From: Symmachiella macrocystis
GTDB lineage: Bacteria; Planctomycetota; Planctomycetia; Planctomycetales; Planctomycetaceae
DNA: 64,000 nt
Assembly: GCF_007860075.1 (NCBI RefSeq)
Contig: NZ_SJPP01000003.1
Span: 682,001-746,000, forward strand
Direction: 5' to 3'
Part shown: piece after piece, positions 3,622 through 7,690 of the stretch
Position numbering within the stretch: the first letter of the stretch is position 1
How the letters are laid out: every line of letters starts with the position of its first letter
Made by a program: the position numbers and the translations under genes
Notes under the pieces: model-generated
Database searches by the model: none
The model's input: the letters and a program-made list of their open reading frames with translations, nothing else
What the model was told of the DNA's origin: nothing

Positions 3622-4470
3622 ATGCAGGTTGAACATGTGGCCATTTTGGGCGCGGGGGCAATGGGCCGGGGCATTACCGAAGCGGCTGCCGTTCACGGCG
3701 TCCAAATCACTGTGATCGAACCGGTTCAGGAACAACGCACGTTAGCGGCCGCCCACATCAAAAAGTCAGTTGAAAAGGGGATCCGCCGCGGAAAAGTGTC
3801 GGCCAAGTCACCAGAGGAAGTCCTGAAGTGTATCCGATGGACCGATCAACTTGAGGCGGCTCATGAAGCGGATTTTGTCATCGAGGCCGCTGTGGAACGG
3901 GAAGAGATCAAAACCGAATTATTTCGGAAACTGGATGTCATCTGCGGCCCTGATACGATTTTAGCGTCCAATACGTCCAGCATTTCCATCACTCTTTTGG
4001 CCGCAGCGACAACGCGTCCCGAACAGGTCGTGGGGATGCATTTTTTCAATCCTGTGCCCGTGATGGCGCCGGTGGAAATCGTACGTGGACTGCAATCCAG
4101 TGCGGAGACGATCGCGACGACGAAGACACTGGCGGAAAAAATGGGCAAACAGGCCCTCGTGGTGGCCGACAGTCCGGGATTTGTGGTGAACCGGATCTTG
4201 ATGCCGCTGATCAACGAAGCCATCTTCACGCTGCAGGAGGGAATCGCCGACGAACAGACAATTGATTCGCTAATGAAATTGGGTTGCAACCACCCCATGG
4301 GTCCGTTGGAATTGGCAGACTTAATCGGCTTAGATGTTTGTCTCGATATTTCAAAAGTTCTTTTCAAAGAACTGGGCGATCCTAAGTATCGGCCTTGTCC
4401 ATTGCTAGCGAGGATGGTCGCTGCCGGGCATATCGGCCGTAAATCGGGGCGTGGGTTTTACCAGTACTAA
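3622..4470 (+). CDS. 3-hydroxyacyl-CoA (3-hydroxybutyryl-CoA) dehydrogenase
   Basis: A 282-residue stand-alone dehydrogenase that oxidises (S)-3-hydroxyacyl-CoA with NAD, or runs in reverse in C4 metabolism. It has the Rossmann motif [11 protein letters not shown] (residues 8-18), the [10 protein letters not shown] segment and the catalytic-histidine motif HFFNPVPVM (H140). The C-terminal dimerisation domain contains [12 protein letters not shown] and ends [11 protein letters not shown], as expected. The length is typical of the short single-domain form (Hbd/PaaH). AGAGGGG lies just upstream of the ATG. It follows proC by 21 bp, though the two functions are not obviously linked. Confidence 0.94.
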
Positions 4471-5085
4471 ACCCCCACCTGACGTTGCCGTCTAAACCAT
4501 TATCGGCGAATAGGTGATGATGGCAATGAGCCTCGATCGGTGATTTTTTCGAAAAGAAAAAAAGGCATGCGTATTTTTTCGCACCCGTGCCAATCAAGTT
4601 CGTGTTCCCATTACGACTTACAACCCGATCACTCCTGTCGATTGCGCGGCTTTGTGTTGCGAACGTTTTTTGGAATTCTCAATTGTTAATTTCGGTAACT
4701 TGACTTTGCATCTGTATTCGATAAAACGGGATTCCTGAGAGGCGATCGTGTAACGGAGGCAGTTAAGTTCGGTGTCCTTATGGGACATGGTAGGACCCCC
4801 TCTCCTTTTGCCGTTTCTTTCTCGCGCGGCACACGCTGAACGTCACGACCGAGCACTGCATGCCGGTTGATGCACTGTTCCACACAGCATCACGCTGTGC
4901 GCTGATTGCGAAGGCTCGCTGTGCGCTAGACGCGAATTTGTGGGAACGGAGTCCCACTCACGCGGCATTCCCCACGACCCATCTGCCCATTGATGTCTTT
5001 GGGTGAAGCGAATTCTGAGCGGGGAATTTTCCGTCCTCTGCAGAATGGTGCGACGCTACCCTACGGGGACGCGGAAAGAATCGCC
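4471..5085. other. Intergenic region, no gene seen
   Basis: This 615-bp stretch lies between the convergent ends of the dehydrogenase and the retron reverse transcriptase. No open frame in it looks like a protein. Small hairpins are visible, for example GTGGGA...TCCCAC near 4939-4956 and TGTCC-TTAT-GGACA-like pairing near 4772-4788. A run of T and A residues at about 4542-4562 could end transcription from either side. No second copy of the retron msd hairpin was found here. Confidence 0.5.
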
Positions 5086-6375
5086 TTAGCTGCGCCAATC
5101 GATACGATCAAAGATGGCCTGCAGTTTGCGTGAACGACCGGGATGGATGCTCTGTACATGGCCGATGCGACCGCGCAGGTGTGCGGCAAAGTCTGCCCGT
5201 TGTTCACGGTTTTGCGTCGCAGCCCCGTGCCTGACGCAGTTCGTCAATATCGCTTTGAGACGGTCGTAATCTTTACGGCAAATATTTAACCGCTCATTGA
5301 CAACCACTCCCGTGACGCGTTGCTGTTGATTGTTGCGAACGACTTTCCGCTTTCCCGCGTGAACGGTGAATCGTTCGGACCGTACAATCTTTGTGACCAG
5401 CGGAATAAACACATTCAGACTGTCGATCAGGTGTTGATCGCCCGAAAATGTGAGGTCGTCGGCATAGCGGGTGTAGGTGGCACCGAAAGCGCGGGCCATG
5501 CCGGCCAAGCGCAGGTCCAACGCATAACAAGACAAATTGGCCAAGGCGGGCGACGTCGGAGCGCCTTGTGGCAAATGTCGCGACAAATAAGGACGGACCA
5601 CGTTCCGATCACCGCCCGGCGCCGGTAGGCCTTCGGGAGGCAACGCAGTTGTCAGCCGTCCCAACCAGATTGCCGCCTCGCGCGAAAATCCGACGCTACG
5701 AAATATTGCCACTACGCGTGAGAAGCTGACGTTGGCATAGAAATTCTCGAGGTCGAATTTCAATACCACGCGCTGCCCCACGTGCGGTTGGGCATTGGTA
5801 CAAATCGACCGACCGGCAACGAAACCATGAGCTGCGCCGTGCAGTGGAATCCGGTCAAGGATTTCACGGAGGATTTTTTGTTGGATCGCTTTGAGGATCG
5901 GTTTGGGAGCCTCAACGAGCCGATACCCACCGCCCCGTTTTTTTAACCAACTGTAATGATAATGGGCCTGCGCAACATGCGCTGCGCGCCCGCCGTCGTC
6001 AAAGCGATGGATCAGCCATGCCAATCGACCGCAGGGCACCTCCAACCATTCAGCAATGTGGCTGGGCGTGCAAAGCTGGGGCAAGCCGAATTGGTAGAGA
6101 CGTTCGGGGGTGCTATCCTTGCTGAGATCACGGTATTCGCCGTAACCTCCAAAACGCGCAAAGCGATAGGGGGATTCAGCGGATTCCTCACCCGCATCCT
6201 CAGTAGGATCAGCGGAGCGCTGGCCTTGCCGGCGACGCAAGGGGACCATGTAGATGTGTCCCAAACGGCCGCGACGGCGACGCAATTTCCCACGGCGCTG
6301 CTGTGCGTGATCCCGCCCCGTGGGAGGCGTGTTTTTCAATCCGAGCCAGCGGAGAATGGAATCGAAGAAGCTCAT
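5086..6375 (-). CDS. Retron-type reverse transcriptase
   Basis: A 429-residue RNA-directed DNA polymerase. Motifs in order: YRLVEAPKPILKAIQ (151-165, RT1), the retron-specific NAxxH as NAQPH (194-198), FDLENFY (207-213, motif A), QGAPTSPALAN (270-280), the catalytic YADD (304-307), the retron-specific VTG (354-356), and a thumb ending RGRIGHVQSIHPGRSRKL. NAxxH together with VTG separates retron RTs from group II intron and DGR enzymes. Residues 1 to about 92 are an extra arginine-rich extension, longer than in classical retron RTs of about 320 residues. The ATG at 6375 is used; a TTG lies two codons upstream. The ribosome-binding site is weak. The msr-msd-like RNA lies upstream on the same strand. 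No effector gene follows; the next gene downstream is on the other strand. Confidence 0.93.
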   Translation of the reverse strand: MSFFDSILRWLGLKNTPPTGRDHAQQRRGKLRRRRGRLGHIYMVPLRRRQGQRSADPTEDAGEESAESPYRFARFGGYGEYRDLSKDSTPERLYQFGLPQLCTPSHIAEWLEVPCGRLAWLIHRFDDGGRAAHVAQAHYHYSWLKKRGGGYRLVEAPKPILKAIQQKILREILDRIPLHGAAHGFVAGRSICTNAQPHVGQRVVLKFDLENFYANVSFSRVVAIFRSVGFSREAAIWLGRLTTALPPEGLPAPGGDRNVVRPYLSRHLPQGAPTSPALANLSCYALDLRLAGMARAFGATYTRYADDLTFSGDQHLIDSLNVFIPLVTKIVRSERFTVHAGKRKVVRNNQQQRVTGVVVNERLNICRKDYDRLKAILTNCVRHGAATQNREQRADFAAHLRGRIGHVQSIHPGRSRKLQAIFDRIDWRS

Positions 6376-6638
6376 ATGCAATTACGCCGCCGTTACTCGT
6401 GCCCGGTGCGGACGAATGGTTCTCCAACGTCCTCAAAATGACAAACCGATCGACGAATCACTGAGTGTTGCCCGTTGTTGGCAGCTGTCTCAGTCGATTC
6501 TCGACCCGTCGAGAAAGTTGCGACGGAGGCGAATGTATGGATTTTTTGTAGCACGTTGTGCGGGACGTACGTCCTTGGACGTGGCGTCTCTCTCCCAAAT
6601 CGGAACTTCGCCTGCAAGGCCCCCAACCATAAAAACAA

Positions 6639-6814
6639 TGACCGGCGGGCGGAACAACTGCTTCCTGTGGCGAATCGTGACTCACGTGACGATCCACGTG
6701 AGTCACGATTCACGATCGAATGTGAAACAATGTGGCTTCCGCGGGGTAGCCCCGCAGCAGACCGACATACCGGTCAAGGTAGGATCGGTCAAATCTTGTG
6801 CAACCCGCCGGTCA
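6639..6814 (-). ncRNA. Putative retron msr-msd RNA (template for msDNA)
   Basis: This 176-nt element upstream of the reverse transcriptase has the textbook retron order, read on the minus strand. The a1 repeat TGACCGGCGGG (6814-6804) is followed by TTGC, holding a candidate branching G at 6801. Two msr hairpins follow: GACCG-loop-CGGTC (6775-6760) and GCGGGG-CTA-CCCCGC (6755-6741). Then comes a long msd hairpin with a perfect 17-bp stem and 6-nt loop (6711-6672), and finally a2, CCCGCCGGTCA (6649-6639), exactly complementary to a1. Seen directly: the inverted repeats. Inferred: that the RNA is made and reverse transcribed. The gap from a2 to the RT start, 263 nt, is longer than in classical retrons. 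Confidence 0.8.
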
Positions 6815-6823
6815 CAATGAAAT

Positions 6824-6851
6824 ATCGTAACAGCCCCCCGATACGGGTCAA
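6824..6851 (-). promoter_or_regulatory. Predicted sigma-70-type promoter of the retron
   Basis: On the minus strand, TTGACC (6851-6846) is followed after 16 nt by TACGAT (6829-6824). The expected transcription start falls at about 6816-6818, within a few bases of the first base of a1 (6814). Retron RNAs normally start at or just before a1, so the position supports both calls. Confidence 0.55.
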
Positions 6852-6997: not shown

Positions 6998-7690
6998 ATG
7001 CTGGGCAACGTCGAGCCAACACAATATGACCTACGGTTTACGATTTTCGGGATCCCGGTCCGCGTACATCCATTTTTTTGGCTGTTGGCCGCCTTTATCG
7101 TCTGGGACGCGGTCGGCGGTCAACTGGAATTGGTAGTTGTCGGGATCGCGTGCGTCTTCATCTCTGTGCTGATCCATGAACTGGGGCATGCCGCAGTTGC
7201 GATCAAGTATGGTTGGCCACCCCGCATCACGTTATATCACTTTGGCGGACTGGCGAGTTTTGAACCGACAGGCGGCCTCACGCCAAGACGCTCGATCATC
7301 ATTTCCTTGGCCGGACCGCTGGCCGGCTTTGCACTGTATGGGCTCGTCTGGGGCATTGAGTTTTATTTAATACGAACCGGGAGCCCGCTACTACAGCGGC
7401 CAATGGTACTTGTCGCGATCTATTTCCTCAAATGGATCAACCTGTATTGGGGAATACTGAACCTGTTGCCGGTTTTTCCACTTGATGGCGGGCAAGTCAG
7501 CCGCGCACTTTTCACACAGTTCAGTCGCGGTAGCGGTATTTCGGCATCGCTCAAACTCTCGCTGATCACTGCCGGCGGAGTGGCGGCCTATTTCTTTTTG
7601 CACCAACGAATGTTTATCGGAATTATGATGGTGTCGTTGGCTGCCTCCAGCTACCAACAGCTGCAGGCCTATGGCAGACGCGGTTGGTGA
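6998..7690 (+). CDS. Site-2 protease family (M50) intramembrane metalloprotease
   Basis: A 230-residue polytopic membrane protein of the minimal S2P type. The zinc-binding HELGH is at residues 60-64 inside the second hydrophobic segment. The third ligand lies in NLLPVFPLDGG (about 155-165), the family's LDG motif. No PDZ or CBS domain is attached. Such enzymes cut transmembrane substrates such as anti-sigma factors; the target here is unknown. The frame is open from 6851, but ATG 6998, preceded by GAAAGGAA, gives the usual N-terminus. It is divergent from the retron, whose promoter lies in the same intergenic space. Confidence 0.92.
   Translation: MLGNVEPTQYDLRFTIFGIPVRVHPFFWLLAAFIVWDAVGGQLELVVVGIACVFISVLIHELGHAAVAIKYGWPPRITLYHFGGLASFEPTGGLTPRRSIIISLAGPLAGFALYGLVWGIEFYLIRTGSPLLQRPMVLVAIYFLKWINLYWGILNLLPVFPLDGGQVSRALFTQFSRGSGISASLKLSLITAGGVAAYFFLHQRMFIGIMMVSLAASSYQQLQAYGRRGW

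Follow-up and report, generated by a model that had tools for sequence, protein, structure and literature searches.

An apparently old, mostly vertically inherited planctomycete retron with a covarying RNA and without a linked effector

The window, a 64,000-nucleotide stretch of DNA from Symmachiella macrocystis, carries on its minus strand what is very probably a genuine two-part retron, composed of an RNA and a reverse transcriptase (RT), that forms an old, mostly vertically inherited, single-copy pair without a linked effector and is putatively membrane-associated. The original prediction of a complete retron at 5086–6851 holds, in that all of the named elements are present in the order given, and the retron interpretation is supported both by the placement of the RT in profile and fold searches and by a conserved, covarying RNA. 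The co-occurrence of RNA and RT, the RT motifs, the RNA structure, the linkage of the two parts, their inheritance and a promoter-like site are all read from comparative sequence analysis.

The window encodes a retron reverse transcriptase

The RT gene (5086..6375, minus strand) encodes a 429-residue protein and runs from an ATG at 6375 to a stop at 5086. An in-frame TTG at 6381 is present in the open reading frame list as an alternative start; the ATG at 6375 aligns with the starts of the orthologs. PMC6868368 defines a retron RT by YADD and by the motifs of region X (NAxxH) and region Y (VTG). The window RT contains all three, as YADD, NAQPH and VTG, and these motifs, which had been read beforehand from the single sequence, are conserved over 56 aligned orthologs (alignment A3): no ortholog departs from YADD, from the A or H of NAxxH or from the G of VTG, and the N of NAxxH and V of VTG are conserved in at least 90%, with the T of VTG in neither class. 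The GC3 of the gene is 0.607, and that of neighbouring genes is 0.60–0.71. A contig scan with this one protein returned a single relative, which is 59% identical and lies on a Planctomycetaceae contig.

Based on sequence profile and fold searches, the window protein is a retron RT. It belongs with the PADLOC profiles RT_other (428 bits), RT_outgroup (406 bits) and RT_XIII (353 bits); the first two outrank RT_XIII, and the best profile is thus not one of the numbered retron types I–XIII. No effector is named for these three profiles, and the planctomycete RNA and the first 87 RT residues (for RT_other) lie outside the match. PADLOC retron RT profiles are matched by 56/56 orthologs of A3. For the curated NCBIfam retron RT models, the window RT scores below the cut-offs (retron_St85_RT, 188.9 bits vs 235; Ec67 fusion, 186.4 vs 450; TIR retron, 181.9 vs 600). 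This shortfall is not treated as defining because these models describe particular retron types and not retrons at large.

Placement of the RT among known classes, named as a check with the original prediction, was carried out in part, by profile and by fold. When the A3 profile was compared with solved structures, the best match was the RT of retron Ec86 (E = 8e-49), ahead of group II intron RTs at 1.6e-7 or worse. An AlphaFold model of the window RT (mean pLDDT of 91.7) likewise has Ec86 as its best fold match (E = 5.5e-23, TM of 0.83 by target), compared with 3e-12 for group II enzymes and about 1e-9 to 1e-10 for DRT2 and DGR enzymes. The PADLOC, profile and fold searches thus place the RT closer to retron RTs than to enzymes of the group II, DGR or DRT kinds. 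A group II intron, DGR or DRT-type RT beside an unrelated upstream RNA would share the general RT fold, yet this reading is very improbable: retron RTs lead by many orders in both profile and fold searches, the group II intron RT model TIGR04416 and the Drt2 model score only 37.6 bits (cut-off 300) and 31.8 bits (cut-off 390) on the window RT, and the upstream RNA has retron architecture.

A conserved, covarying RNA precedes the RT gene

The retron ncRNA (msr-msd), approximately 180 nt in length, is located at 6639..6818 on the minus strand. It is matched by covariance model R1 with 134.5 bits, a score obtained for one of R1's own building sequences, and the fold of 6639–6818 has a z of −8.34, with 0/200 shuffles as good. 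A promoter, an a1 repeat, two small hairpins, a 17-bp msd hairpin and an a2 repeat had been predicted upstream of the RT on the same strand, and coordinates could be assigned to each. The a1 repeat (6796..6814, minus) forms the 5′ side and the a2 repeat (6639..6657, minus; alignment and covariation) the 3′ side of the a1/a2 duplex, which comprises 19 column pairs. Over 37 sequences, 95.4% of the a1/a2 cells are paired; in the window, the inner part of the duplex contains two mismatches, which recur in its genus. The first base after a1 (6795, minus) is the predicted priming (branch) guanosine, by analogy with known retrons as described in PMC6868368. This G is found in 37/37 sequences, but it lies inside the anchor by which the sequences were picked; as to the AGC context looked for around it, the next base is C in 20/37 (counted by eye on alignment A1) and A in the window. 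The duplex mismatches and this A are points against the retron reading.

Two hairpins follow in the msr. The first (GACCGATCCTACC..GGTATGTCGGTC; 6760..6790, minus) is suggested by the fold and by A1; its length varies between genera, and as MAFFT aligns it poorly, the pair counts do not include it. The second (CUGCGGGG-CUA-CCCCGCG; 6740..6757, minus) covaries, with 99.7% of cells paired and both-side changes in 3/8 pairs. The msd hairpin (6672..6711, minus) can be read directly from the window as a perfect 17-bp stem with a 6-nt loop, and both-side changes are observed in 14/15 of its modelled pairs (78.1% of cells paired). Identity to the same-genus genome G152 is 82% for the RNA (145/176 aligned bases), compared with 70% for the RT gene and 65% for the spacer between RNA and RT.

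Covariation was assessed on alignment A1. Candidates were collected with a regular expression that matched in 52/80 ortholog loci; after exclusion of L043, L110, L078 and of sequences more than 90% alike, 36 remained and, with the window, gave 37. As its core letters served as anchors, they are partly selected, and the variable stems are not. The sequences were aligned by MAFFT without structure, and the structure was then drawn by hand from A1. Its 42 pairs (a1/a2, 19; msr hairpin 2, 8; msd, 15) are paired in 90.1% of cells, and 28/42 show both-side changes, so that the stems covary, as a test proposed with the original prediction had asked. There are 195 compensatory cells compared with 61.4 in shuffles, and covariation is 0.359 compared with 0.144 for shuffles and at most 0.098 for slid structures. 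On any of five measures, 0/500 shuffles are as high as the A1 structure. Judged by these measures, the upstream RNA is not a chance structure.

In Rfam 15, searched in both modes, no family matched the retron RNA; the sole match, a microRNA on the msd hairpin, was judged to be chance. A small helix at 158–172 proposed by RNAalifold was dropped, and an extension of a1/a2 was preferred. The msd stem of the window has no second copy in its own genome, where one site with two mismatches occurs, and for this reason no msd target site is suggested.

A degenerate retron, with remnants of RNA and RT that no longer make msDNA, is highly unlikely. In G028 (L016/L045) a frameshift-like break, which is either a sequencing error or a real loss, interrupts the N-terminal linker of the RT, and several ortholog matches are flagged with one internal stop. 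In the other 79/80 loci, however, the best tblastn stretch is free of stops, and the flagged stop of G038 is the terminal one by coordinates. YADD is invariant across the aligned orthologs, and the RNA has accumulated compensatory changes, both of which argue against decay.

Aside from the retron RNA, an intergenic element at 4690–4815 of the window has a near-identical counterpart in the sister species and is located elsewhere in G152. As a candidate second RNA it was rejected, being conserved in the genus but without a fold signal.

Promoter-like and terminator-like sites frame the RNA, which is linked to the RT

Upstream of the RNA, a −35 element (TTGACC; 6846..6851, minus) and a −10 element (TACGAT; 6824..6829, minus) are separated by a 16-bp spacer and constitute a promoter-like site. 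A promoter-like score of 9/12 or better is reached in 60/76 loci, compared with 4.3% of mononucleotide shuffles; TTGACC or TTGACG is present in 54/76 loci, TACGAT in 25/76 and the 16-bp spacer in 44/76. Just after a2 there is a T-run (6631..6635, minus), which together with the a1/a2 stem looks like an intrinsic terminator. A T-run of at least four is found after a2 in 46/76 loci, with a background of 5%.

The RNA is conserved next to related RTs, as expected from the original prediction. It is found by R1 in 76/80 ortholog loci (the window stands for L034), and in 75/75 of the loci checked by script it lies upstream of the RT on the same strand. In one of the remaining loci (L038), the RT contig runs out, and the RNA lies at an end of a different contig. 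The other three (L091, L101 and L103) are all three species of genus g16, in which the RNA is on a different contig from the RT. These lone RNAs (L251:4621-4788, L252:4754-4923 and L253:4671-4841) have kept the promoter-like site and the T-run in 3/3 species; if they are the template of the RT, they must act in trans. In a further genome (G061), two tandem copies of the retron RNA (L095:3934-4084 and 4253-4403) lie upstream of one RT.

The core retron is widespread and mostly vertically inherited

About two thirds of the order's genomes carry the core retron. R1 matches the RNA in 106/170 genomes of the family, 86/130 near-complete genomes and 41/58 genera, with 37 of the matched sequences having built R1, and an order-level R1 search gave the same tally over the 170 genomes. 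Core-type RTs were called from 103 strong and 3 partial matches, typed by hand. RT and RNA are found together in 104/170 genomes and, as a rule, in a single copy each; two genomes have the RT alone (G042 and G065), two the RNA alone (G035 and G037, which are 76% and 74% complete) and 62 neither. Across a sample of the phylum, R1 matches 31/392 genomes, 26 of them in the family and five, weakly (E of 7e-8 to 1.5e-4), outside it. Each of these five RNA matches adjoins an RT that is 43–48% identical.

A tree of rpoB from 80 genomes, 60 with and 20 without the RT, was used to follow the inheritance of the core retron. Presence and absence require 7 changes on this tree compared with 17.9 when shuffled (0/500), and three of the changes are forced by starred branches. 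Among the 56 genomes with both proteins, 23/26 RT splits with an SH-aLRT of at least 95 are also found in the rpoB tree, and quartets agree in 89% of well-resolved cases and 66% of all those sampled. The correlation of RT and rpoB distances is moderate (Spearman 0.45, compared with a maximum of 0.30 in 2000 permutations). Three strong RT splits conflict with rpoB. One of them groups G099 with genus g25, and the core retron of G099 (L061) is an apparent horizontal transfer into an otherwise retron-less clade, with g25 as the nearest genus. A sub-clade and some single lineages have no retron, and the retron is therefore not essential. Taken together, the tree comparisons indicate a core retron that would be old and mostly vertically inherited in the order.

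A second set of retron RTs in these genomes, here called type B (L151–L170), behaves differently. In the 20 loci fetched, its RTs are 41–47% identical to the core type, and many loci have an upstream GGGG-CCCC hairpin (seen by eye), with R1 matches of E ≤0.001 in 4/20. A tree built from 105 RTs has a branch (SH-aLRT of 96) that parts the 80 core rows from the 20 of type B; L263–L265, which come from outside the order, can also be placed on the core side in this tree. Type B also differs in its RT N-terminus. By eye, there are at least 27 full-length and at least 7 partial type B matches among the 170 genomes. On the rpoB tree, type B takes 12 changes for 13 full-length carriers and 15 changes for 16 carriers when partial matches are included; a separate tally gives 13 changes for 14 carriers. 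Because of the congruent trees and few changes of the one and the 12–15 changes of the other, the core type is regarded as mostly vertical and type B as patchy.

The neighbourhood holds flanking genes and no dedicated effector

Two genes frequently flank the retron. A divergent M50 peptidase gene is found upstream in 29/80 loci (6998–7690 in the window) and a gene for a multi-helix membrane protein downstream in 36/80 (for example, L045:7497-8291); both are present in 21/80 and at least one in 44/80. Among the retron-less genomes fetched, 6/7 (L255–L260) have the M50 and membrane-protein genes adjacent, with approximately 40–280 bases between the aligned parts. The adjacency is an empty site, which for the basal genomes may reflect either loss or the pre-insertion state.

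The downstream membrane protein has no match in Pfam, NCBIfam or PADLOC. It occurs in 147/170 genomes, retron-less ones included, and is unlinked to the retron in the window's genome. Being widespread in the order and also present without the retron, it was rejected as a dedicated effector. Among open reading frames of at least 110 residues over 80 loci, no conserved dedicated neighbour was found, nor was one seen among smaller frames near the RT, which were judged by position only; the eight largest small-frame clusters coincide in position with the RNA, the M50 gene or the gene of the membrane protein and were set aside as presumed overlaps. Pfam identifies RVT_1 and nothing else in the window RT, and so no fused effector domain. 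Neither a linked effector gene nor a fused domain, one of which a tripartite anti-phage retron would have, was thus found by a search that covered neighbours and would miss an unlinked effector.

These observations bear on two readings of the retron's function. In the first, which is possible though far from favoured outright, it is an ordinary anti-phage retron with its effector or toxin elsewhere in the genome, and its wide vertical spread reflects a stable, low-cost defence. Characterised retrons defend with an effector, according to PMC12548924; the 56 scanned orthologs all match PADLOC retron RT profiles, and absence from a sub-clade and from single lineages is as for a dispensable defence gene. 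Against this, no linked effector is seen, the only frequent same-strand neighbour being the widespread membrane protein, and neither this protein nor the eight window neighbours scanned match any PADLOC model. The congruence with rpoB is also unlike that of the patchy type B. In addition, none of the relatives in phage (27) or plasmid (132) records reaches 60% identity, the best listed being 34% and 44%, and the best relative on viral contigs is 36% identical among the best 80 of 385. The original prediction pointed to phage defence as the activity of known retrons. That role is not carried over to this retron because it is mostly vertical, its window neighbours have no PADLOC match and no linked effector was found.

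In the second reading, which we consider somewhat doubtful, the retron is domesticated and serves a non-defence role, with constitutive msDNA at the membrane performing a housekeeping task in, for example, the chromosome, the envelope or stress. It is as a rule single-copy, widespread and mostly vertical, lies amid non-defence genes and has a conserved promoter-like site, and its RNA is retained also in genomes in which RNA and RT are unlinked. On the other side, the functional link in this reading comes from position only, and the lack of the retron in a whole sub-clade indicates that it is dispensable there. Defence, through an unlinked partner or the RT's own N-terminus, and a housekeeping role are given about equal weight.

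A conserved N-terminal segment may tie the RT to the membrane

The RT begins with a conserved segment (MSFFDSILRWLGL; 6337..6375, minus) that is a candidate membrane-binding helix. With starts set by a rule that prefers ATG and small or hydrophobic residues, and so favours the motif, 62/79 RTs start with MG and 71/79 with M-[GSAPT]-[LFWIV]. The typical N-terminus is MGLFDFLRRLLFG, and it is followed by a long linker in which basic residues, proline and serine are often abundant. In 3/79 RTs (L073, L106 and L110) transmembrane-like segments are found instead. The mean hydrophobicity of residues 2–13 is 0.42, compared with −0.3 to −0.5 further in, and their mean helical moment is 0.42, compared with 0.28 when shuffled. 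Because an average of 18% of the shuffles of a sequence attain as high a moment, the case for an amphipathic helix is moderate, and conservation is the stronger point. In the AlphaFold model of the window RT, residues 3–10 form a helix (pLDDT of about 76). The out-of-order RTs L263–L265 share the motif (MGLSFLKKLFGG, MGLGFLKRLFGG and MGLGFLRRLFGG); by eye, L266 and the type B RTs do not have an N-terminus of the MGLF type. GLFD-type segments presumably resemble membrane-active peptides, which we take as a lead. As the N-terminal segment is conserved, and transmembrane-like in three species, the RT complex is probably membrane-associated, and the tail may be what ties it to the cell membrane.

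Proposed mechanism

By extension from known retrons, the RT would bind the msr hairpins and prime from the 2′-OH of the G after a1 (6795), as set out in PMC6868368. Synthesis of cDNA is predicted to start opposite about 6658, and copying of the msd would yield a branched msDNA that contains a long hairpin and is very roughly 75 nt in length. At the inner membrane face, the RT–msDNA complex may then be held by its N-terminal segment, amphipathic or, in three species, transmembrane-like, and by a flexible linker of basic character. Output would come from an unlinked protein of the host or from the N-terminal helix of the RT itself and not from a neighbouring toxin gene. Tentatively, the most likely role is that of a membrane-tethered guard of nucleic acid with output by one of these two routes. 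More speculatively, the retron could be a core, effector-less, membrane-anchored machine of the order that makes msDNA continuously at the inner membrane, uses the N-terminal helix as anchor or output, has a role other than the toxin-guarding phage defence of known retrons and can draw on its RNA even in trans.

Comparison with known retrons

The best solved relative of the planctomycete RT, by sequence and by fold, is Ec86 (Eco1), and the RNAs share the a1-msr-msd-a2 order. Ec86 works with an effector, as stated in the title of entry 7v9x, whereas none was found for the planctomycete retron. The planctomycete RT also has approximately 80–90 additional N-terminal residues; the profile match starts at residue 93 here and at residue 10 in Ec86.

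The closest precedent is provided by the myxobacterial retrons (Mx162 and Sa163), which, according to PMC6868368 and PMC8867640 with their citation of Rice and Lampson 1995, are vertically inherited and have msDNA in 27/28 strains tested. Common to both are an RNA and RT and vertical inheritance within a bacterial group. The planctomycete retron differs in its phylum, in the conserved membrane-type N-terminus of its RT and in that its msDNA is a prediction. Judged by the Rfam search, in which the planctomycete RNA matches no family, the two RNAs would also differ. To our knowledge, no functional partner of the myxobacterial retrons has been described.

Retrons as a class, and vertical retrons in myxobacteria, are already known. 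New here are an RNA family absent from Rfam, a retron with no linked effector that is inherited mostly vertically across an order, an RT N-terminus of a conserved membrane type and, in one genus, an unlinked RNA. No paper on a planctomycete retron RNA was found in a literature search that did not extend to the main retron classification, where an earlier mention is possible. We know of no earlier case of a membrane-associated retron RT or of a retron whose RNA and RT are encoded apart; if true, both would be new features of retron design. At present, retrons are nearly always interpreted as patchy phage-defence units with three parts. A single-copy, mostly vertical retron that is effector-less by linkage revives the question of an msDNA role outside defence, last raised for myxobacteria, and supplies a set of related species for testing such a role. 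With a covariance model and empty sites at hand, the locus is easy to locate and to delete.

The window's genome contains a second RT (G000:C2:353306-353731; L002:817-2289, minus), which has a strong PADLOC match to Drt5 (526 bits).
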